Origin: a virus
IMG/VR virus record: IMGVR_UViG_3300032296_003213
Span: 1-30,169 of that record
DNA length: 30,169 nt
Strand: one strand, 5' to 3'
A program made the position numbers and the translations under genes. Below, piece after piece: positions 17,937-29,873 of this stretch (positions are counted from its first letter, which is position 1; each line of letters starts with the position of its first letter). The notes beneath the pieces were generated by a model. It did no database searches and was not told the origin of the DNA. It saw only the letters and a program-made list of their open reading frames with translations.

Positions 17937-18649
17937 TGCTGGTGCCCGTCCGCCGCAAGTACGTCTACAAGCGCCTCGAGCGCCTCGACAGGTCCTCGGG
18001 CCGCGTTTATCGCATCGATGGCGATGACATCCCGATGCCTAGCGTCACGACCATCCTCAATGAGACCAAGGACCGCAGCAGTCTTAAAGCTTGGGAAGAG
18101 CAAGTGGGCAAGGAAGCGGCCGAGCGCATCAGGAACGAGGCAGCCACCATCGGCACCCACATGCACGGCGTCATCGAGCGATTGCTGCTGGAGCGGCCGC
18201 TGGACATCCCCAGAACATGGCAGCAGGTCAGGGGCTACTGGATGGGCTACAGGCTCATCGAGCACTTCTTCCCGCATGTCAACGAGGTGTGGGGCGCGGA
18301 AGTGTCGCTGTACGTGCCAAGCACATACGCCGGCACTTCCGACTGCGTGGGCGTCTACAAGGACAAGCCCAGCATCATAGACTTCAAGCAGACCAACAAG
18401 CCCAAGAAGCGCGAGTGGATTGAGGACTACTTCCTACAGCTTGCCGCGTATGCGGTTGCGCACGACAAGGTGCATGGAACGAAGATCGACCAGGGCGTGG
18501 TGATGATGATGAGTCAGGCCGGAGAGCCGCAGGAGTTTGTCACCGCCGGCCGCGAGTTCGACGAGTACAAGGACAAGTGGTGGCGGCGCGTGGAGCAGTA
18601 CCAAAAAAGAGGCCGGGAGGTCCAGCCTCCCGGCCAAAGTGCCATCTAG
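17933..18649 (+). CDS. PD-(D/E)XK exonuclease, MGME1/RecB-like
   Basis: 238 aa. The motifs of the PD-(D/E)XK superfamily are in order: helix with GTHMHGVIE (74-82), acidic D137 in GTSDCVG, the IIDFKQTNK core with D150/K152, and Q169 in YFLQLAAYAVAH. This matches the MGME1/phage exonuclease and RecB-nuclease branch that trims DNA ends, producing substrates for recombination. The ATG overlaps the helicase stop (ATGA), linking the two. Its last 15 codons contain the terminator of the opposing late transcript. Confidence 0.85.
   Translation: MMLVPVRRKYVYKRLERLDRSSGRVYRIDGDDIPMPSVTTILNETKDRSSLKAWEEQVGKEAAERIRNEAATIGTHMHGVIERLLLERPLDIPRTWQQVRGYWMGYRLIEHFFPHVNEVWGAEVSLYVPSTYAGTSDCVGVYKDKPSIIDFKQTNKPKKREWIEDYFLQLAAYAVAHDKVHGTKIDQGVVMMMSQAGEPQEFVTAGREFDEYKDKWWRRVEQYQKRGREVQPPGQSAI
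18603..18635 (-). terminator. Intrinsic terminator of the late leftward operon
   Basis: On the minus strand GGCCGGGAGG, a 5-nt loop and CCTCCCGGCC (18611-18635, a perfect 10-bp stem) are followed by TCTTTTTT (18603-18610). It lies inside the 3' end of the oppositely oriented nuclease gene, about 70 bp beyond the last leftward gene. No T-run exists on the plus strand. Confidence 0.8.
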
Positions 18650-19153: not shown

Positions 19154-20188
19154 TTACATCCGGAAACTGCCCGCGCCGCCGGCTGCGCCGCCGCCCAGGC
19201 TGGCTATGCCGCCAGAGGTAGCAGGGTTTGCTTGCTGGCCCATCGTAGACTGCTGCTGGTTCATCGGCGTGACTTGCTGCGGACGAGCCTGCTGATTCAT
19301 TTGGCCAAATGCCGGCGGTTGGCCCATTGGAGATGGCGTTCCGAGCTGACCGAACCCAAGTTGAGACAGGGTCTGAGAAAACGGAACACTCTGCGTCGGA
19401 GCGCGAGTCATGTCAGCCGTGGTCGTTGTGTTGTATGGGCCGATCATTCCTGATTGGTATGGGCTGGTCATCCCTGGTGGGATCATTCCGGGCTGGCCCA
19501 TCGAACCCAACGGCATCGAACCCAACGGTTGACCCATCATTCCCGGTTGGCCCAACGGCATCGAACCCACCGGCATCTGCGTTGCCATTCTGTCCAGTTG
19601 GCCCACCATTGGGGTAAATTGGCTTTGGAACGCTTGGTCTTGCGCTAACATATTTTTGTATGCATCGCTGCTTTCGAAAGCGTTTCTCAATTGGGCCAGC
19701 TGTTGCAGTTGGTCTTGGGTGGGCATTTGGCCAGGGGTGAGGCCGCTCTTCATCGACTCAACGTATTGTTGCATCGCCAGGAACTCTGGCGAAGCCTGCA
19801 CTGCGTTGTTAGCGTCAAAAAGCGATTGCGGGGGCCTCACTGCTGGAAAAGATTGACTAATCGGCGCGGTTGGCATTGCCGGGCGCGCACCGCCAGTCGT
19901 CGCACCGCGAGTGCTCATGAAATCGTCCACAGTCATCGACGCGGGCATGAGGGGTTTGATAGCGGGAAAAGTTTGATTAATCGGCGCTGTCAACGGAGCA
20001 GGCCGTGGCCCACCAGTCGTCGCACCGCGAGGGCCCGTGAAGTAATCTGCGGGCACAAGTGGCCTTGGTTGCATGGGCGGCTGACCGAACGGGCCCCCCA
20101 TGCCCCGCCCAGGGCCTCTGTCCATACCCGGCCGCCCAGGACCTCTGTCCATACCCGGTTGCTGGCCAAGATTATCAAATGGTTTCAT
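19154..20188 (-). CDS. Pro/Gly/Met/Gln-rich disordered repeat protein
   Basis: 344 aa with almost no globular sequence. Residues 12-29 hold a 9-aa tandem repeat (PGMDRGPGR twice). Two 40-aa modules follow, sharing RGATTGG.RPA..TAPI.Q.FPA (near 55-76 and 95-116). A helical stretch (125-195; EFLAMQQYVESMKSGL) contains the only folded-looking region. Then GSMPLGQPGMMGQP-type repeats and a Gly-rich tail. The ATG at 20188 sits 8 nt from AAAGG; a GTG 9 nt upstream overlaps that site. A virion-associated role is inferred from the late operon; function unknown. Confidence 0.75.
   Translation of the reverse strand: MKPFDNLGQQPGMDRGPGRPGMDRGPGRGMGGPFGQPPMQPRPLVPADYFTGPRGATTGGPRPAPLTAPINQTFPAIKPLMPASMTVDDFMSTRGATTGGARPAMPTAPISQSFPAVRPPQSLFDANNAVQASPEFLAMQQYVESMKSGLTPGQMPTQDQLQQLAQLRNAFESSDAYKNMLAQDQAFQSQFTPMVGQLDRMATQMPVGSMPLGQPGMMGQPLGSMPLGSMGQPGMIPPGMTSPYQSGMIGPYNTTTTADMTRAPTQSVPFSQTLSQLGFGQLGTPSPMGQPPAFGQMNQQARPQQVTPMNQQQSTMGQQANPATSGGIASLGGGAAGGAGSFRM
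19893..20158. repeat. Internal duplications in the disordered-protein gene
   Basis: CCAGTCGTCGCACCGCGAG occurs at 19893-19911 and 20013-20031, exactly 120 bp apart, inside a diverged 120-bp (40-aa) tandem duplication. CCTCTGTCCATACCCGG occurs at 20115-20131 and 20142-20158 (period 27 bp). A further set of 15-bp CGAACCCAACGGCAT-type repeats lies at about 19500-19575. All preserve the reading frame. Confidence 0.85.
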
Positions 20189-20215
20189 GGTGGTCACCTT
20201 TGTTAAATATAAAAG

Positions 20216-20590
20216 TCACTTCAGCTTGCGCAGCTTATAAAGAGTGCTCAAGAAGGTTTCGATAGCCCCATCGATGAGATTCTGGATCGGGCTGTCCTTC
20301 TTGTCCACCGCATCGTAGCGAAGCTTCTCGATGTCATCGAGCATGTCCTCTAAGGCCTTGATGCAGTCCGGCTCGTCAGGCATCTTGAGGTACGGGATGT
20401 GGATGATCACATCGTATCTGCCTTGGTATGCCTCGGTGATCGTATCGGCATGGCCAATGATGGCTTCGTAGAACTCGCCCAGGGCGGAGTGCTTGGCAAA
20501 GCTGCCAGGGCCAGTCACGCTCAAATGCGCTCGATGGGCATACTCCCGTGCCAGGAACATAGTTCCAACCAAACGGCCAATCATTTCCAT
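20216..20590 (-). CDS. Dps/ferritin-like protein (DUF5856-like)
   Basis: 124 aa. Residues 18-54 align without gaps to the Dps ferroxidase region: H22 and H34 (AHLSVTGPGSFAKH), then D49 and E53 (EFYEAIIGHADTITEA). These match E. coli Dps H51, H63, D78 and E82. Dps proteins oxidise iron and protect or condense DNA; the phage DUF5856 family has this fold. The remaining sequence is helical (DEPDCIKALEDMLDDIEKLR). A GGAG Shine-Dalgarno sequence lies 6 nt before the ATG. It is encoded among virion-protein genes, so packaging within particles or host protection are both open. Dodecamer formation is not deducible. Confidence 0.78.
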   Translation of the reverse strand: MEMIGRLVGTMFLAREYAHRAHLSVTGPGSFAKHSALGEFYEAIIGHADTITEAYQGRYDVIIHIPYLKMPDEPDCIKALEDMLDDIEKLRYDAVDKKDSPIQNLIDGAIETFLSTLYKLRKLK

Positions 20591-20601
20591 AAGCTACTCC
20601 A

Positions 20602-23600
20602 TCACTGTTGCGGTTGTGCGGGCTGCATTGCGGCTTGGCGCTGCATCAAAAGTCCGCTTATCGGGTCGTTGGGGAACATCGCCGGATACATCAAAGGCAC
20701 CTGCGTGGACGCAGGTGCAGCAGGCTTTGTCGTAGGCAGGCGCAGGTTGGGCTCGTAGCCGCGAGTTGGCGGAGCAGGCGGCAGATTGCGCAGCATCTGG
20801 CTTGCAGAAGTGCGGGGCACTACCGGCTGGCCTTCCATACCCTGCACGGGGGTGGTCCGCCCTTCGCGCTCAATGTCAGTAATCTCTCGGGGGATGGCCC
20901 GAGTAGCGGCTGCAACTGCAGGCTTGCCAAAAATCATCTCTTTGCTGATACCGATGTCCTGCAACTGCTTGAGGACCTTCTCACCGTCTTTGGGCGTGGC
21001 GATGTTGGTGATGCCCCGAGCAAACTCAGGGCTCTCCAGGGCCTTGGTAAAGATGCGCTTGTAAAGCTCGTTCTCCAAGCTGCCGGTCATACGAACCATC
21101 AATGCCAGAGCGCCGGTCTCAGGAGCAATCCTGCCTACCATCGCTTCACGCATGGTGGTCGTCAGGAACTGAATACCTGTTCCGAACGTGCGGCGCAGAG
21201 CCTGATCCAACGATTCAAACGCTGGAATCTGCCCAGTTACGCTGGCAAATGCATTGACGCGCCGCTGCAGATCGGCGAGCTTCTTGAGATCATCAAGGTG
21301 GCCAGTGCCGCCAAAGAGAACCCGCAAAGACTTCTCGTTGGTATCCAAGAACGATTTAAGCCCGCCGCCGCCCTGCGCCCCCTGTGCTGCAAGCTCGTAG
21401 ACGGAGCGACGAAGCGAGGCAATCTTCTCAGGGTCGGTGCCCATCGTGTCAACCAGCTTCTTCATGATCGCCGGGTCACGAATGGCGTCCACAAGAACCT
21501 GCTTGGGATCAGCCTCGGGCCGTGATGCGCGGGCAAAGACCCGATCAAGCTCGTTATCCTGCGCGGCAACCATGCGGCGGTCAATTTCACCCAACCGGGC
21601 AACGTAGTCGTTGGCCAGATTGAGTTCATCCTTCAGCCGTGCCTGGATGGGCTGCGGCAACGCCTCGACAATGTTGCGGTTCTTGTCGAGCACACTGCGC
21701 ATGAGCTTGGGATCGATCAAGCCTTCTTTGTTGACCACGCCCTTGCTGCGCAACCAATCAATCGTGCCATTCATCATCAGGCGCTGGGCCTGCTCATCGC
21801 TGCCGAGGATGGTGGTCACACTTCTCAGGTTGTCTGCGTTCTTAAACGCATTCCTCATTAGGTCTTCGTTTGGCAGCAAATACTCCATGCCGCCGCGCTT
21901 GGCCTGCGTCATCAGCAGAGGCAGCGTCTTGTCGTACGTGCTCTTGTAGTCATCAACCATGACCTTCAAGGCTTGGTATTCGCTCTTGAGCCGTGGTGCG
22001 CGGTCCAGGACCAGTGCCTCAACGTCCTTGAACACAGCGTTGCCTGTGTCAAGGATTCGCTGCGCATCAGTCTGACGTACACGGCCCTTCATCATGGCCG
22101 CGTTGTAGTCGTTGAGCGCATCGTTGCGGAATCGCTGGGCCGCTGTCAAGTAGTCCAGGGCCTCTGGAATGTTGATGTCGATCTTCGTGCTGTCAGCAGC
22201 GATCCGAGCAGCGTCCTGGCGAATCTGCTCAGGGTTGATGATGATCTTGCGACCAGGGATAACTGTGGGAATGGCGACGTTGCCCTGAGCATCCGGAGTA
22301 GCAAGTTCCGTGAGCCCTGGAGTGCGGCGGCCGCCTTTGGGCTTATCCCCACGGACAAGAGATTGCACAGAAGAACGGATCGCCTTCATGATCTCGGGAT
22401 CATCAAAAGCTTTGCCCATGCCGGCAATCTGGCTGTCAATGGCCTCGTTGGTAAGGTCATTGAGCATCCGAGCCTCGAGCCTTTCGCGGTTGCGAAGCTG
22501 GCCCTGTACAAAGCTGTCGAGCAGTCGGATAGGCTCAGGCACTGCCTGACGCATGGATGGGCGCTCGATCTTGTACTTGCTGATCAGCGACAGCACCTGC
22601 TCTTCCATGTCCCTGGCATCGAAGAGCGACTTGCCTTGATCACGGGTAGGCATAGGCGTTCCGTCCGGGGCCGTGGCTTGCTTGAGGCCAATTCGGGACA
22701 GGACGCTCTGCCGCATCCGGTTGTCGGCTTCCATAGAGGCCTGAATGACGCCGCGTAGCTCGTTGTTGAGCATGTTGATATTCTGCGGGCCCAGGCGCTC
22801 GGAGATTGCCAGGATTTCAGCGTCCGTCAGGTCTTTCTTTTGGCGCACCAGATTTTCAAAGAAAGCCTGCCGGTCAGCCTGCGCGGCCTTGAAGGCATCC
22901 ATTACCGGGGTACGTGCCTCGGGGGACAGGTTGCCAAACAGGCGATCCAGCGCAGCTTGGTTTTGGCTGATGCGGGCCTTGACGCCCTCGAGGTCCTTCG
23001 GGCCCAGTTGCTGCAGCAGCCGAAGCTTTTCCTGCACCAGCGGCGTGTACATGGTGGTTTCGGCCGCATCAAAAACAAACCCCGCCTCTGCAAAGCGCGG
23101 ATCGTCCATCGCTGCACGAAGCGCAGCAAGCGCCTCTTGTGCTTCCTTGCTCTCTGCAATAGGCCCAAACACCTGCTCAAGCTTGCGCTCGGCGTTTTGC
23201 ATCAGCTTCTTAGGCACGATGCGGACAATCGGAGCCTGCCAGAACTTCGGGGCGCTCTCCAGAACTTCTCGCTCAACATCCGTGAGCCGTGATCCGGGGC
23301 CGGTGAGTTGCTCTCTTGCAAACCCGACCGCCTTGCCAGTGGGCGTCATCTGCGCTAGTTTCCCAGCGGCAGAAAAACCGCCGGACAGGGCAAGCGGTAG
23401 TCCTACAAACGCAGCAGCGGGCAGCAGTTCCTTGAGCAGGGCCTTGGAGGGCTGGTCGTCGGAGACGTTTTCTTCCACTGCCTGACGCATGGTCTCGTAG
23501 CCCGCGCCAAACGCCATGTCCAGGGCAAGCGCCTTCTTCGGGCTCTTTGCAATCATGTCCATCGCATCCTTGGCCACGGCCCGCAGGACGGTGGGGGCGG

Positions 23601-24015
23601 GAGTAGCAACAGCCAGTGGGGTGCGCATGGCCGCAGCCGCACCAAGAACACCCGTAAACGGCAAACCTGCTCCCGCGCCTTCGCCGACGGCCCGGGAGTA
23701 TCGCTCCAAAGAATTACGGGGCGATACCTCGCCCCGGTTGAAGAACTTTGCAAACTGGAAGACTTGCTTGTCGTCCAACCCCAGGCCCCTGCCGATGACT
23801 CGCTGCGCGGCATCAGGCAGTGCAAACAGGGCCGTGTTGAAGCCCCAGGAGGCTTGGTTGATCAGGCCCTTGACCTTGTCCGCGCCCTCCGTTACCTGCT
23901 CCGGGGCCCCTGCTTTGCGGGGCTCGGTTGCAACAGGAGCGCCTTCTGCACGGCCGACAATATCGCCCGTGTCGGCATCAACTACTTGGCCCTGGGTGTT
24001 GATGAAGGTTGGCAT
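20602..24015 (-). CDS. Giant helical putative internal virion protein (1137 aa)
   Basis: Not matched to a named family. It is long, mostly alpha-helical and charged, with Ala-rich stretches near the N-terminus (AGAGLPFTGVLGAAAAMRTP) and around 160-215 that may be weakly membrane-associated. It has heptad-like helices in the middle and a Pro-rich C-terminus. Such size, composition and late position match podovirus-type ejection proteins (gp15/gp16-like role). No lytic transglycosylase motif was found. Translation is coupled to the preceding gene by TAATG. Disulfides are unlikely: the protein has almost no Cys. Confidence 0.72.
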   Translation of the reverse strand: MPTFINTQGQVVDADTGDIVGRAEGAPVATEPRKAGAPEQVTEGADKVKGLINQASWGFNTALFALPDAAQRVIGRGLGLDDKQVFQFAKFFNRGEVSPRNSLERYSRAVGEGAGAGLPFTGVLGAAAAMRTPLAVATPAPTVLRAVAKDAMDMIAKSPKKALALDMAFGAGYETMRQAVEENVSDDQPSKALLKELLPAAAFVGLPLALSGGFSAAGKLAQMTPTGKAVGFAREQLTGPGSRLTDVEREVLESAPKFWQAPIVRIVPKKLMQNAERKLEQVFGPIAESKEAQEALAALRAAMDDPRFAEAGFVFDAAETTMYTPLVQEKLRLLQQLGPKDLEGVKARISQNQAALDRLFGNLSPEARTPVMDAFKAAQADRQAFFENLVRQKKDLTDAEILAISERLGPQNINMLNNELRGVIQASMEADNRMRQSVLSRIGLKQATAPDGTPMPTRDQGKSLFDARDMEEQVLSLISKYKIERPSMRQAVPEPIRLLDSFVQGQLRNRERLEARMLNDLTNEAIDSQIAGMGKAFDDPEIMKAIRSSVQSLVRGDKPKGGRRTPGLTELATPDAQGNVAIPTVIPGRKIIINPEQIRQDAARIAADSTKIDINIPEALDYLTAAQRFRNDALNDYNAAMMKGRVRQTDAQRILDTGNAVFKDVEALVLDRAPRLKSEYQALKVMVDDYKSTYDKTLPLLMTQAKRGGMEYLLPNEDLMRNAFKNADNLRSVTTILGSDEQAQRLMMNGTIDWLRSKGVVNKEGLIDPKLMRSVLDKNRNIVEALPQPIQARLKDELNLANDYVARLGEIDRRMVAAQDNELDRVFARASRPEADPKQVLVDAIRDPAIMKKLVDTMGTDPEKIASLRRSVYELAAQGAQGGGGLKSFLDTNEKSLRVLFGGTGHLDDLKKLADLQRRVNAFASVTGQIPAFESLDQALRRTFGTGIQFLTTTMREAMVGRIAPETGALALMVRMTGSLENELYKRIFTKALESPEFARGITNIATPKDGEKVLKQLQDIGISKEMIFGKPAVAAATRAIPREITDIEREGRTTPVQGMEGQPVVPRTSASQMLRNLPPAPPTRGYEPNLRLPTTKPAAPASTQVPLMYPAMFPNDPISGLLMQRQAAMQPAQPQQ

Positions 24016-26405
24016 TACTGCATCAATCCTATAAGCTGGGTTGGCGTTGCGCTCTGAATGGCTCCGTTGGGCATCCGCAGATAGACCGTGGCCCGTGGGT
24101 CTTGAATCCTGCCAATCGTGCCGCCAAGGAAGGTGTACATGCGCTTCCTTGCATCCGCATCGGAGGGGATCACAAACGGATCAGACTGTGTGCCCGTGTT
24201 GGGCGTGGACATGACAAAGTCGTTCTTTTCATAGCCCAACTGCGTGAGCACCTGCTGTCGGGCATTTCGGAGCATGGCTTCCATGCTGTTGAATTGCTTG
24301 GCAGCAAGCTCTTTGTCCGCAAAGAATCTAGTGGGGTCGCTAATACCCTTGGCCGTCTCACGCGCCCACTCCTGCTCTTGCACCGCAACCCGTCCGCCAT
24401 CATTGGCAGAAGCGATGTTTTTCAAGATGGAGTTCATGCCGGTGCTGATACGAGTTGAGGCATCAGTCAGGTCAAGGTTTGGCCGCAAAGTTGCAGAGGG
24501 AAGAACAGGGACCAGCAGGTTGTTGACCTTGTCCGAGAACCACGCACCGGGGCCGTAGGCCTGCGTGTAGACGCCCTTGAGGCTGTCCAGTGTTGCCAAA
24601 CTGTTGTCCAGTGAGCGCAGCGTTGAGGTGAGCTTAATGCGCTCGCCTTTGTCTGTTTCCACCGAAGTGGGGGCCTCGCCGCGATTGGTGACGAATGGAT
24701 TGTCAGTCGGCCGCAGCGTAAAACGGCTTGCGACCGCCGTTTTGACGGTTGGGTTGCTGGGGTCAACAGAAAAACCAATGAAGCTACCGCTCTTGTCCTT
24801 GGAAACCAAAAGGCCCGCCCCACCGTCTTCGGTAATCACGCCGCCTTTCTTAGCCTGCTCCCTGAGTAGTTCGTAGTCGCCCCTGAGCATGATCTCTTTA
24901 AGGCGTTGGGCAAACTTGTCCTGCTCCTGGACATCGCTGACTGCTTGAGACAGCGCGGCGGTGTCGACCTTAATTTGACGATCCTTGGCCTGAGCAAGAA
25001 GCGCCATGAAGCCTTGCGGCAAGCCCTGAGAAGCCTGAGCAAGCAGAGATATCGGGGTTGTGCCTGACTTGGCCGGCAGCGATGCGTACTTGAACCCGGC
25101 ATCGGCCAGCATCAGCATGGCGTTGACATACATGTCATCCTTGGTGTCGCCAAGAAGTTCTTTGTACAGAGGCGCATACTCTTTCTGCGCCTCGCGGATT
25201 CTTTCTATCCGGCTCTTCTCGGCTCCAACTTTTGGCGCGGCCACGTTGGGCTTGACTTCTGCTGTTCCTGCAGCGGCAGCCGGGGCAGGCGCAGCGGCGG
25301 CGGCCGAGTCGCCGCCTTCGATGACCTGACGAATAAAGTCTGCGTTGTCCGTGGGCGCTGCTGGCGCACCTTCGGCACCCCTAGTAGCGGGAACTTGTAC
25401 GGGCGGAACTGCCTTGGCCTGTAGGCCCGCGACAAACTGAGCCAACTGTTCGTTGCTCACGTTCGACAGGGAGGGCATTGGGATGCTTCTGTCGGTGACT
25501 TTGTAGTAGGCGTCTTCGTAATCCTTCAAAAGCTTCTGCCGTACCGGGTCTTCGCCAGGAGCAGTTGCACCTCGGTATGCCCCCACCGCACCCAGTGTGC
25601 CCACAGCCCCTAAAACGGCGGGAGCGCCGGGTGTAGCTGCCCCAGTAAGGCGGCTTAGCGGGCCCATGACCTGCGGCCCAACAAGGTTGGACATGTGTTG
25701 AGTAAAGGTCGGGTACGTCAAGAACTGCTCAGCGGTGTACCGGCCACCAGGGCCACGCACGTTCTCAAGAATCGGCCGGAAAGTCTGTGGGAAGCCCTGC
25801 GACATGAGACGACCAGCGGCGGCATTGGCCGCCGACATCTTGTCCGCACCAAACTGAGCGAAACGTGTGAGCGGAGTGATAAACGCGCCCCCCGCCGCTT
25901 GGATCGGAGGCAGGCCATCGGGAGTGGGCGGAGCCTGCTCAGCCCCGCCCTGGGAAAAAGGGGGAGCACCCGCCATGCCTTCAGGCATGGGAATTCCTGC
26001 TCCTTGGTCCGTGGGCATCGCACCCATACCCGGCATCATGCCCTGCGGAGCCATCGCCTGTGCCTGGGGAAGACCACCAATACCACCTTGCTGCGCAAAC
26101 TGGGGCTGCAGCATAGCCAGCACTTCCGGAGGCGTCTCCATGGCCGCCTCTTCGCCAACCATCTGAGCAAGCTCCATGTACCGAGCGTCCACCGAGCGCA
26201 TGTCACCGCGCAGGTTGTTCATCAAGATTTCTGGATTTTGCGGGGTGCGGGCCATTTGAGGCATTTCCTCAGACGGCTCCTCCGGCTCTTCCATTTCATC
26301 CATGTCTTCTAGTTCGTCCTCAAACCCAGACAGAATGCCGGAGTTGCGAGCCTCCTTAGACAGGGGCATCGCAAACATCGCCCGCTTCAGTACTTCTTCT
26401 TTCAT
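24015..26405 (-). CDS. Large putative internal virion protein (796 aa)
   Basis: N-terminal acidic segment (EDELEDMDEMEEPEEPSEE), then the motif PEILMNNLRGDMRSVDARYM and a Met/Pro/Gly-rich region (MAPQGMMPGMGAMPTDQG). I recall the PEILMNNLRGDMRSVD motif from phage late genes but cannot give it a function. Further on lie helical segments, an Ala-rich linker with AAAAAPAPAAAAG, and a C-terminal region rich in helices and strands (TLRSLDNSLATLDSLKGVYT). It fits an internal or ejection protein next to the 1137-aa gene. No catalytic motif seen. Confidence 0.7.
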   Translation of the reverse strand: MKEEVLKRAMFAMPLSKEARNSGILSGFEDELEDMDEMEEPEEPSEEMPQMARTPQNPEILMNNLRGDMRSVDARYMELAQMVGEEAAMETPPEVLAMLQPQFAQQGGIGGLPQAQAMAPQGMMPGMGAMPTDQGAGIPMPEGMAGAPPFSQGGAEQAPPTPDGLPPIQAAGGAFITPLTRFAQFGADKMSAANAAAGRLMSQGFPQTFRPILENVRGPGGRYTAEQFLTYPTFTQHMSNLVGPQVMGPLSRLTGAATPGAPAVLGAVGTLGAVGAYRGATAPGEDPVRQKLLKDYEDAYYKVTDRSIPMPSLSNVSNEQLAQFVAGLQAKAVPPVQVPATRGAEGAPAAPTDNADFIRQVIEGGDSAAAAAPAPAAAAGTAEVKPNVAAPKVGAEKSRIERIREAQKEYAPLYKELLGDTKDDMYVNAMLMLADAGFKYASLPAKSGTTPISLLAQASQGLPQGFMALLAQAKDRQIKVDTAALSQAVSDVQEQDKFAQRLKEIMLRGDYELLREQAKKGGVITEDGGAGLLVSKDKSGSFIGFSVDPSNPTVKTAVASRFTLRPTDNPFVTNRGEAPTSVETDKGERIKLTSTLRSLDNSLATLDSLKGVYTQAYGPGAWFSDKVNNLLVPVLPSATLRPNLDLTDASTRISTGMNSILKNIASANDGGRVAVQEQEWARETAKGISDPTRFFADKELAAKQFNSMEAMLRNARQQVLTQLGYEKNDFVMSTPNTGTQSDPFVIPSDADARKRMYTFLGGTIGRIQDPRATVYLRMPNGAIQSATPTQLIGLMQ

Positions 26406-26414
26406 GACGCTTCC

Positions 26415-27494
26415 TTAGAAGAACTTGCTTGCGGCATTGGCTGCCGCTGCGGTGCCCAAGATGCCAGTGCCTACGCCAGCGATTTGCTGGAACGGGCTTG
26501 GTGCAGGCTGCTGTTGCTGAGTAACTGCCATCTGTGTAGACGGCGCACCCTTGTAGATATCCGATTGGAAGGCAATCTGCTGCATTGGGGCCATGGCCTC
26601 TTGCATCTTTGTAGCCCGCAGTGCATCGGCCTCGGCTTGGGTTTGCCGCTGCTGCTGTGCGCCAAGGTTGTAGAGGAAGTTGACATCCTGCTGGCCCAAT
26701 TGCTGTGCAGTCTGTCCCAGAGCGGCCTGTTGAATGCCCAGATTTGCCGATTGGGTGCCCAGTGCGCCCAGGCCCTGGGCCATAGATTGCCCCAAGCCAA
26801 ATTGCTGAGCAGCAAGATTGCCAATCCCTTGGCCAATGTTTGAAAGGCCCTGGCCCTGGGCCATTTGCCTTTGCTGCTGCTGCTCAAAAGCCTGCTGCGC
26901 CTGTTGTTGCGCGGCACCATACCCTTGTTGCAGTGCGCCAAGAATAGCTTGGTTGCGGGTCTGGGCCAGATTACGCTCCAGTTCCGCCCGCTGAATGCCC
27001 TCGCGGCTGCCACCAAAAGCGCCCGACCGAACCGCCTGCGCCTGCAGGTTTTGCCGAGCAATATCGCCCTGCCGGTTGATTTCTTGCAAAGATTGCTGAA
27101 TGACCGCCTGGGTATACGGATTCATGAAAGCTTGGGCAGCGTAGGGATCGTAACCCTGCGCCGCCCCAAGCAAAGAGCCCACCCCAAGATTTGTTGCCGC
27201 TTGCGCTGCCGAAAACTGATTTCGGGTATCGGCTCCCCGCAGCACATCGGCCGCTTCTCCAATAGTTGCAGCGCCTGTCTGCAACTTTTGTGTGCCCTGC
27301 TGTAGGTAGGGCAGGTACGATCCAATGCCTGATGCCCCGATTTCCAATGCTCTTTTCTGGGCATCCGACATCCCCGCTACTTGATAAGCGGGTAATGTAG
27401 GAGAAGGCAGCGCCTGGGCTGCCTTCATGAGGCCTAGCTTATACGCCTCAATCTCTGGCGCTTCGCGGACTATCTGTTCAGTGACTTCAGCCAT
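26415..27494 (-). CDS. Gln/Ala-rich late phage protein (359 aa)
   Basis: The middle carries SGAFGGSREGIQRAELERNL, in a pattern (Q..L..INRQG.I..Q.L.AQAVRSGAFGGSREG...AE) common in phage late proteins, often annotated as structural or internal. The sequence is helical and extremely Gln-rich from about 185 to 300 (QQAQQAFEQQQQRQMAQGQG), then hydrophobic Ala/Gly at the end (GTGILGTAAAANAASKFF). Between two large late genes, it probably is a virion component; possibly analogous to T7 gp14. Role inferred from context. Confidence 0.72.
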   Translation of the reverse strand: MAEVTEQIVREAPEIEAYKLGLMKAAQALPSPTLPAYQVAGMSDAQKRALEIGASGIGSYLPYLQQGTQKLQTGAATIGEAADVLRGADTRNQFSAAQAATNLGVGSLLGAAQGYDPYAAQAFMNPYTQAVIQQSLQEINRQGDIARQNLQAQAVRSGAFGGSREGIQRAELERNLAQTRNQAILGALQQGYGAAQQQAQQAFEQQQQRQMAQGQGLSNIGQGIGNLAAQQFGLGQSMAQGLGALGTQSANLGIQQAALGQTAQQLGQQDVNFLYNLGAQQQRQTQAEADALRATKMQEAMAPMQQIAFQSDIYKGAPSTQMAVTQQQQPAPSPFQQIAGVGTGILGTAAAANAASKFF

Positions 27495-27497
27495 GGC

Positions 27498-29873
27498 TTA
27501 TCCCCGTGAAGCATTACGCTCGAGTTGATGCATAAGGGCGTACATTTTCTTCGCCCCGGCTCTGCGGTTCCCCTTGCCCGCGCCGCGAACAGCCTTCGCG
27601 GTCATGACAAACTCGCCGTCAGAGAGCATCGCAGGGATGGAATCCGAAGTCTCGGTTCCAGGGCCGCTGATCTGTCCAGTGCGACGAGGATACCCTCCTT
27701 GAGCCAAAGAGGCAATACCACCGTAGGCTCGGCGGAGGGGGTTGTAATAGTCGAAAAACAGATTTCCGTACAGATTAGCGGTGTTGTATGGCTGATAAAC
27801 CGGACGGCCGCTGCCAAGGGCTTGCGGAGAAGGCCCATACAGGGTTCCGGCGGGCATAATTCCCGGCGTTTCCAACCGAATATCCTCCACGGTACTTCTG
27901 CCGCCATACGGAGTAGAGCCAACAATTTGGCCGCGCTCATCGTATTGAAGCCCGGGCAGGCCCTGTGGAATATATTGACTGGGGTTGGCCCTGATTAAGT
28001 CCTCTCCCGGAGTGCCACCAAGCCGGTTGGCTAATTCGGATGGGGGAGGCTGTTTTGGCGTAAAGCCGCCCGTCATCCCCATAATGCCCAAGCCCGCTGC
28101 AAGCCCAGGCCCGTAGCTTCTGATGATGCCGGGGTTGTAGGCCTTGCCTGCCTCGGCCAGTGCCGTTGCATCCGTAGCCCCTTTGGCAATTGCAGAGGTG
28201 TATTCGGGCGTTTCGCGAAGCTGGGCTGGCGTAGCGCCCCCCGGCATAAATAGGTCTTTTGACCCGGCCGCAAGTTCCCCAAAGCCTTGTTTGACATTGC
28301 CTTGCAGTATGTTAGAAATGCCCCCGCCCATCCGACCAAGAGAATCCATGACGCCGGGTACTGGGCGAGGGGCACCAGGAGTCGCTGCCTGGGCAGCGCC
28401 AGGGGCAGCACCGGGAGCAGCACCGGGAGCAGCGCCAGGGCCTCCACTCTGGGCAATATCGCCGTAAATTTGGTTTAGGGCGGTTTGAGAGGCACCAGGA
28501 GCAGCGACTGCCGCTGGGGCCACGGGCGCGGGTGCCCCCGCGCCGGGAATGTACCGGCCCGTAATCCTGTCGCCATACGTCTCCTGCAGCCGTGCGACGC
28601 GACTAAAATCCCCCTCCTGCGCCGCTTGATACGCCAAGACTTGAGGATAGTTAGCTATTCCTTCCGGCCTATCAGGTATAAACAGGTTCGCCGGGGGAGT
28701 GCCTCCAAAATCGAGTGACTCCACTGGAGACATGAGACCTGTAGGCGAGGTTCCTGGTGCTTGCCCTGCCATAGAACCGCCCAAAGGCATTGGAAGGGTC
28801 ATGGGCTTGGGAACCTGCGCCCCGAACCCCTGTTGGAAGCCCGTTATGCCTCCAGAGATTGCTCCGGAAATCAAGCCGCTCTTGACAGCATCGGACAGTT
28901 TTTGGCCCGACAACAGGCCTACGCCAGTGCTGACAAGTCCTGCGTTGATCGCCGAAGCCGCCGCCGCGTTTGTAACGCCCATGGCACCTGCGCCAATGGT
29001 GCTGCCCACATAGTTGGCCACCGGGCCGCCAGGAGCCCCAAGGTATCCCACAGCGGCACTGCGCAAAATGTCCTTGAGGTTGCCGCCGCCAAGCGCACTA
29101 ATTGTGGCGGAGGAAAACGCCGCAGTACCAGCCGTCCCTAAGCTGGCACCAAATGCAGTGGGCCCAATGAACGCGGCCAACGCGATAGTTCCCAGGATTC
29201 GGCCAATTGGAGACTTGACGACCTTCTTGACTGCGTTGACAACGCCTTTGATAACGTTACCAATCGCTTTAAAAACGCTCTTTAAAAAGAACTCAGGCAA
29301 GCCGGTTTCGGGGTTGATGGTCCCCGAGCCGCCCTTGGCTTTGAGCATCCGGGCTTCTTGCGGCGTGATGTGTGCCAGCATGGTGTCGCCGTTGCGGCCT
29401 TTGGAGGCAACCATGCGAGCCGCTTCAGCGATTCCTCCGCGAGCCATCTGGGCCGGGGGCATCGGCATTTCAGCCACGGCCTCCCGCTGATTGCCCATTT
29501 GCCGCTGCCGACGGGCTTCCACAAAAACCATCAGGATGGCAGAAAGAATCTCGGGGTCGTATTTCTCCGGCAGCATTCCCGGATCAATGACCTCGTCGTC
29601 AATCAGCTCTTTGACATTTTTTTCGTACTCTTCGGGTTTGTTGAGCATCTCCTGGAACGCTTGAATGAGCAACTCTAGCTGCTCATCGTCCAGTTGATCA
29701 AGCATCGGCATGATGCTGCTGAGGGCTCCCTGAACATCTCCAGCAACCTGTGAAGACACCTCTTCAAGGCCCCCACGGACGGCATCGTAAGCGTCATCTA
29801 TGGAAATTTGGGGAGCGGTGGCGGTTTCGCCTCCCTGCGGTAGAGACATGATGCCTTCGTTTTCAGCGGCCAT
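27498..29873 (-). CDS. Large late phage protein with GGIA motifs (791 aa)
   Basis: N-terminal helical acidic domain (residues 20-125: LDDEQLELLIQAFQEMLNKP). Residues 146-196 hold GGIAEAARMVASKGRNGDT followed by HITPQEARMLKAKGGSG and TINPETGLPEFF. Then come a basic hydrophobic region (197-345) with membrane-like segments (ILGTIALAAFIGPTAFGASL), a low-complexity middle with a GAAP repeat, and a C-terminal 78-aa domain with GPGTETSDSIPAMLSDGEFV and KKMYALMHQLERN. The two GGI(A) segments and the DSIPAMLSDGEF motif recur in phage late proteins known to me. An ejection or tail-associated role is likely. ATG behind AAAGGAACC. Confidence 0.72.
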   Translation of the reverse strand: MAAENEGIMSLPQGGETATAPQISIDDAYDAVRGGLEEVSSQVAGDVQGALSSIMPMLDQLDDEQLELLIQAFQEMLNKPEEYEKNVKELIDDEVIDPGMLPEKYDPEILSAILMVFVEARRQRQMGNQREAVAEMPMPPAQMARGGIAEAARMVASKGRNGDTMLAHITPQEARMLKAKGGSGTINPETGLPEFFLKSVFKAIGNVIKGVVNAVKKVVKSPIGRILGTIALAAFIGPTAFGASLGTAGTAAFSSATISALGGGNLKDILRSAAVGYLGAPGGPVANYVGSTIGAGAMGVTNAAAASAINAGLVSTGVGLLSGQKLSDAVKSGLISGAISGGITGFQQGFGAQVPKPMTLPMPLGGSMAGQAPGTSPTGLMSPVESLDFGGTPPANLFIPDRPEGIANYPQVLAYQAAQEGDFSRVARLQETYGDRITGRYIPGAGAPAPVAPAAVAAPGASQTALNQIYGDIAQSGGPGAAPGAAPGAAPGAAQAATPGAPRPVPGVMDSLGRMGGGISNILQGNVKQGFGELAAGSKDLFMPGGATPAQLRETPEYTSAIAKGATDATALAEAGKAYNPGIIRSYGPGLAAGLGIMGMTGGFTPKQPPPSELANRLGGTPGEDLIRANPSQYIPQGLPGLQYDERGQIVGSTPYGGRSTVEDIRLETPGIMPAGTLYGPSPQALGSGRPVYQPYNTANLYGNLFFDYYNPLRRAYGGIASLAQGGYPRRTGQISGPGTETSDSIPAMLSDGEFVMTAKAVRGAGKGNRRAGAKKMYALMHQLERNASRG
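28391..28438. repeat. Four 12-bp tandem repeats
   Basis: Four consecutive 12-mers of the type GGGCAGCRCCRG (28391-28402, 28403-28414, 28415-28426, 28427-28438) encode a GAAP repeat on the minus strand. Units differ at one to three positions. It is an in-frame microsatellite-like linker in the 791-aa protein, prone to length variation. Confidence 0.85.

Follow-up and report, generated by a model that had tools for sequence, protein, structure and literature searches.

A gene on the minus strand (20216–20590) of the 30,169-base IMG/VR virus record analysed here (the window, a fragment without capsid genes) encodes a compact Dps-type protein of 124 residues that is not an orthodox Dps, and the chances are about even that this protein is a virion-carried ferroxidase limiting the harm done to DNA by iron and peroxide. 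The ATG is located at 20590 and the stop codon ends at 20216, and a GGAG motif resembling a ribosomal binding site is found 6 nt ahead of the ATG (20597–20600, same strand). The protein matches the Pfam family DUF5856 (PF19174) with 53.3 bits against a curated cut-off of 34.6 (E 5.9e-14), and this is its sole Pfam match at E values up to 1. There is no match to Ferritin (PF00210), a family that is reached by 3 of 19 diverse DUF5856 relatives. By comparison to PHROGs the protein belongs to phrog_858 (E 2e-17). DUF5856/phrog_858 is a catalogued phage family with rI.-1 of T4 as a member, and it is present in T4 and more than 1000 sequenced phages, while a scan of 84,980 bacterial and archaeal genomes gave only three relatives, of which two are on MAG contigs, and no plasmid relatives were found for the CBA120 member.

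The sequence-only reading had placed H22, H34, D49 and E53 without gaps on the ferroxidase residues H51, H63, D78 and E82 of E. coli Dps. This is confirmed by phmmer against the PDB sequences, where E. coli Dps (6gcm) aligns ungapped over residues 17–54 in a weak match, and Bacillus brevis Dps (1n1q) aligns over residues 6–54, also ungapped, with an E value of 0.0045. The four codons are located on the minus strand at 20525–20527 (H22), 20489–20491 (H34), 20444–20446 (D49) and 20432–20434 (E53). The claim of "all four ferroxidase residues" is correct for the four that were matched but amounts to four of five. Dps has a fifth ligand, an acidic residue (Asp or Glu) four positions beyond the second His, which is Asp67 in E. 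coli Dps and Glu in MrgA and HP-NAP; in the alignment its place is taken by Gly38 (20477–20479, minus strand). Gly is found at this position, H34+4, in the clade of this phage, whereas T4, RB49 and CBB have Asp or Glu; these three and the crAss-like member are among the only 8 of 164 relatives with an acidic residue here. The two His residues are 12 residues apart in this clade, as in Dps, compared to 9 in the Vi01, P22-like and T4 members.

A search of the window in all six frames finds the exact spacing H-12-H-15-D-4-E once, and shuffling the 124-residue protein 100,000 times reproduces it in 81 cases (0.08%). Among 164 distinct relatives, drawn from IMG/VR and phage records, only five columns are invariant, namely H22, H34, D49, E53 and L120. 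The same five are invariant in a set of 19 very diverse members with identities down to 20%, which includes T4, RB49, RB16, LIMEstone1, Sajous1, CBB, 121Q, the crAss-like cr127_1 and Caulobacter phage GB2A. The codons of the four ligand residues vary synonymously among the relatives while the residues are fixed. If invariant sites were random, all four ligands would be found among five invariant columns with P ~5e-7, a rough guide only as every site is treated as equal. A chance alignment to Dps is ruled out by this invariance test together with the predicted fold.

AlphaFold2, run with 45 aligned relatives, gives a four-helix bundle with a mean pLDDT of 97 and a pTM of 0.90, and with helices at residues 3–24, 30–59, 76–94 and 100–122. 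The top solved structures in Foldseek are Dps proteins (probability 1.00, TM ~0.75, best E 0.004), and VIA-align also ranks Dps first, with a Z score of 14.7 over 122 residues at 2.4 Å. Against E. coli Dps the Z score is about 13, with the model lying on residues 30–166 in the same register as in the sequence alignment. Unrelated helical bundles may reach a Z of about 13, so the score is not a proof by itself, and it is the register and the ligand match that complete the case. Thus the suggestion of a Dps-like protein, made from the sequence, is borne out by a predicted ferritin-like fold, and the best matches among solved structures are without exception Dps. The metal site of Dps, a dodecamer, is formed between two subunits, and clustering of the ligands in a monomer is therefore the wrong test for these models, which are single chains. 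Kinship with Dps and the fold itself are in our judgement highly probable, and a putative metal site is likely present.

In comparison with Dps (E. coli Dps, MrgA, HP-NAP and M. smegmatis Dps2) the protein shares the four-helix bundle and the ungapped H/H/D/E, but it is shorter (124 residues compared to about 145–167), it has Gly38 in place of the fifth ligand, no BC helix is present between residues 59 and 76 of the AlphaFold2 model, and there is no Lys/Arg-rich N-terminal tail, helix A starting at residue 3. With the other DUF5856 members (rI.-1 of T4 and RB49, Vi01_092c, LIMEstone1 ORF78, Sajous1 gp217 and CBB_169) it has in common the same four ligands, a similar length and the fold. Ferritin and bacterioferritin, including the mini-bacterioferritin 9qq5, resemble it as helical bundles with Z ~12, but have their ligands on all four helices of one subunit, whereas here they are on the first two helices, as in Dps. 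A classical ferritin is ruled out, as the invariant ligand-type residues are on helices A and B only.

The names given to phrog_858 ("starvation-inducible transcriptional regulator") and phrog_3636 ("DNA binding protein") would suggest a nucleoid-type DNA-binding protein or a transcription regulator. We regard such a role as very unlikely; the database names are probably inherited from Dps, Pfam shows no DNA-binding domain in the 124 residues, the basic tail is missing, and the pI is 5.5, with 15 Lys and Arg against 20 Asp and Glu. For the same reasons of tail and charge, DNA binding by this protein is not supported.

The gene is part of a minus-strand operon, 29873–18704, which ends at a strong hairpin resembling an intrinsic terminator (18611–18635) that closes the late genes. 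The first gene (27498–29873) encodes a 791-residue protein with a C-terminal tape-measure/internal-virion motif (phrog_23013, E 3.5e-9), followed by a 359-residue protein (26415–27494) that weakly matches phrog_4287, "DNA ejection protein" (E 1.1e-6), a 796-residue protein (24015–26405) without a family match in PHROGs, and a 1137-residue lineage-specific protein (20602–24015) which is separated from the DUF5856 gene by 11 bp. Downstream follow a low-complexity protein of 347 residues (19154–20197), rich in Pro, Gly, Gln and Met, a protein of 137 residues, and then the hairpin, all on the minus strand. The hairpin has ten pairs, is G+C-rich and is followed by a T-run, and it faces convergent helicase and nuclease genes. 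The 1137-residue protein gave zero tblastn matches in 50,697 phage records; its gene lies immediately upstream throughout this clade and is conserved in dozens of IMG/VR contigs beside the Dps-type one. The 347-residue protein, in which tandem PGMDRGPGRPG-type repeats and Gln/Met-rich stretches are found, has no family at a useful E value in Pfam or PHROGs, and BLAST did not detect it in relatives.

The gene order 796–1137–DUF5856, followed by the convergent nuclease/helicase pair, is kept in relatives. The operon content, the terminator and the order in 68 loci place the DUF5856 gene within a late structural operon, and the proposed location among internal virion genes is accordingly upheld by the annotation and by the conserved order. 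In 196 loci, which are not independent phages as some contigs were entered twice, the upstream gene is of the 1137-type in 68, a P22-type portal in 81, and another gene or an unreadable contig edge in 47. In ten of the 47, genes for structural, virion and tail-fibre proteins occur upstream, and so do genes for a glycosyltransferase, an HNH endonuclease and a 2OG-Fe(II) oxygenase. In P22-like short-tailed phages (L062:7986-8348, L063:7986-8348 and the 81 IMG/VR loci) the final base of the portal gene is also the first of the DUF5856 gene, which suggests translational coupling, and in ctNMl277 and DSL-LC05, where the portal arrangement is annotated, the stop codon of the portal gene overlaps with the start of DUF5856. 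Genes for 2OG-Fe(II) oxygenases are located near the Dps-type gene in two relatives (L112:2397-2942 and L062:12527-13138), a possible iron-related pairing.

The T7-type head-tail connector (PF12236) and the phrog_2 terminase were absent from the 8 relative contigs searched, and the lineage was therefore judged from SU10-type adaptor proteins, two separate ones being encoded upstream in one relative contig (L252:1899-2573 and L252:2906-3745), which suggests a short-tailed phage lineage. The genomic contexts cluster in a tree of the relatives, indicating that inheritance within a clade largely accounts for each, and since the site is invariant in all of them the H/H/D/E chemistry, whatever its nature, is probably common to all contexts.

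Homologues have been found in virions by mass spectrometry, at modest abundance. For ORF78 of LIMEstone1, 3 unique peptides gave a coverage of 28.2%; all 12 unknown structural proteins were reported to have structural counterparts in ViI (PMC3296691). The gene marked "confirmed structural protein" at ORF78 in the LIMEstone1 record is the DUF5856 gene, and its product has the same predicted fold (AlphaFold2 pLDDT 92.9, Z 14.5). Sajous1 gp217, found with 10 spectra in virions and named a ferritin in 2024 through Phyre2 (PMC10892097), is a DUF5856 protein identical to the Vi01 protein, and CBB_169, present in particles of the jumbo phage CBB with 3 peptides and 26.3% coverage (PMC5259590), also belongs to the family. 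The link to the virion thus holds for homologues, in the published proteomes of LIMEstone1, Sajous1 and CBB; the proteomics of PhiSboM-AG3 covered six bands only and has no bearing on this protein. Longer Dps proteins, detected by mass spectrometry, are found in virions of the short-tailed phages SU10 and Privateer, and relatives of this phage have adaptor proteins of the SU10 type. CDS67 of SU10 is the longer protein (21.2 kDa), with its gene among the middle genes. From the position of the gene in its operon and from the homologues in virions, we infer that the 124-residue protein would be associated with the virion in this uncultured phage as well, and its packaging is reasonably probable.

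The chief rival explanation is a Dps-type ferroxidase that is not packaged and acts only in the infected cell, where it would bind iron and remove peroxide while the phage replicates, the traces in homologous virions being carry-over. This would agree with the position of rI.-1 in T4 beside rI and tk, and of the crAss-like member near DNA ligase and thymidylate synthase, that is, among early or nucleotide-metabolism genes, and the same explanation has been given for Dps proteins encoded by phages of the gut and of Lactobacillus (PMC8008677, PMC6669764). The peptides in homologue virions are also few, and according to the authors of the Sajous1 study proteins with low peptide counts may be contaminants (PMC10892097). 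Both P22-like phages and the clade studied here have the gene inside the structural operon, however, and the homologues appeared in three independent virion preparations. We consider activity confined to the infected cell to be rather unlikely, though not negligible.

The detection of homologues as structural proteins, the genes adjoining portal or ejection genes and the loss of the fifth ligand could also be explained by a structural or ejection accessory, in which a di-metal site (e.g. Zn or Mn) merely stabilises a helical dimer and has no redox role. A purely structural bundle should not need the exact ferroxidase set of Dps, yet this set is fixed in 164 sequences, which makes a purely structural role unlikely. 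For Sajous1 gp217 a "ferrojan horse" has been proposed, where an iron-loaded virion protein exploits the iron uptake receptors of the host, but plating on TonB- and on FeoB-deficient Salmonella was similar to that on the wild type (PMC10892097). The DUF5856 genes studied here are moreover located beside portal and internal proteins, not exposed fibres, and this mode of entry is highly improbable.

The preferred explanation, a virion-carried ferroxidase, has support from the fold, the invariant ligands, the loci behind the 1137-residue or portal genes and the homologues in virion mass spectrometry. Against it weigh Gly38 and the missing basic tail and BC helix, the T4 and crAss-like members outside virion genes, and the possible contaminants among proteins with low peptide counts. 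In this explanation a mini-ferritin would be produced in late infection and travel in the particle, either together with the internal or ejection proteins or next to them. The subunits would probably dimerise or form a larger cage, one chain contributing H22 and H34, and the adjacent chain D49' and E53', to a di-metal (iron) centre. Fe(II) would be oxidised there, with peroxide as the preferred oxidant, which would spare the phage DNA from Fenton chemistry, whether inside the head or on entry. We infer that the metal is iron, that the subunits assemble as a dimer or cage, that this phage packages the protein and that it is protective; given the fold, the metal site and packaging, a protective ferroxidase role is likely. 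A wider proposal, that DUF5856 is a widespread mini-ferritin branch found only in phages, with a trimmed four-ligand site, loaded at the head or portal and ejected with the DNA as an antioxidant, is more tentative and falls somewhat short of an even chance.

This is not a new system, as DUF5856/phrog_858 is catalogued and the Sajous1 member has been called a ferritin. In the literature searched we found no mention of DUF5856 by name and no biochemistry on any DUF5856 protein. Nor is the family as a whole described there as a reduced Dps-type branch whose four-ligand site is fixed, or as encoded immediately after portal or internal-protein genes in many short-tailed-phage contigs from the environment. 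A domain of "function unknown" would turn into a metalloenzyme family that can be tested. If particles carry the DUF5856 protein, phages bring their own defence against peroxide and iron, and bound iron should be present in purified virions, which bears on the debate over iron in phage particles and their role in ocean iron cycling. Three phage proteins of 333–763 residues in BFVD, labelled "prohead protease" (A0A6J7XDU5, A0A6J7WIS1 and A0A6J7WPK9), contain a segment that matches this fold, and they may possibly represent a Dps-like domain fused to capsid proteins.
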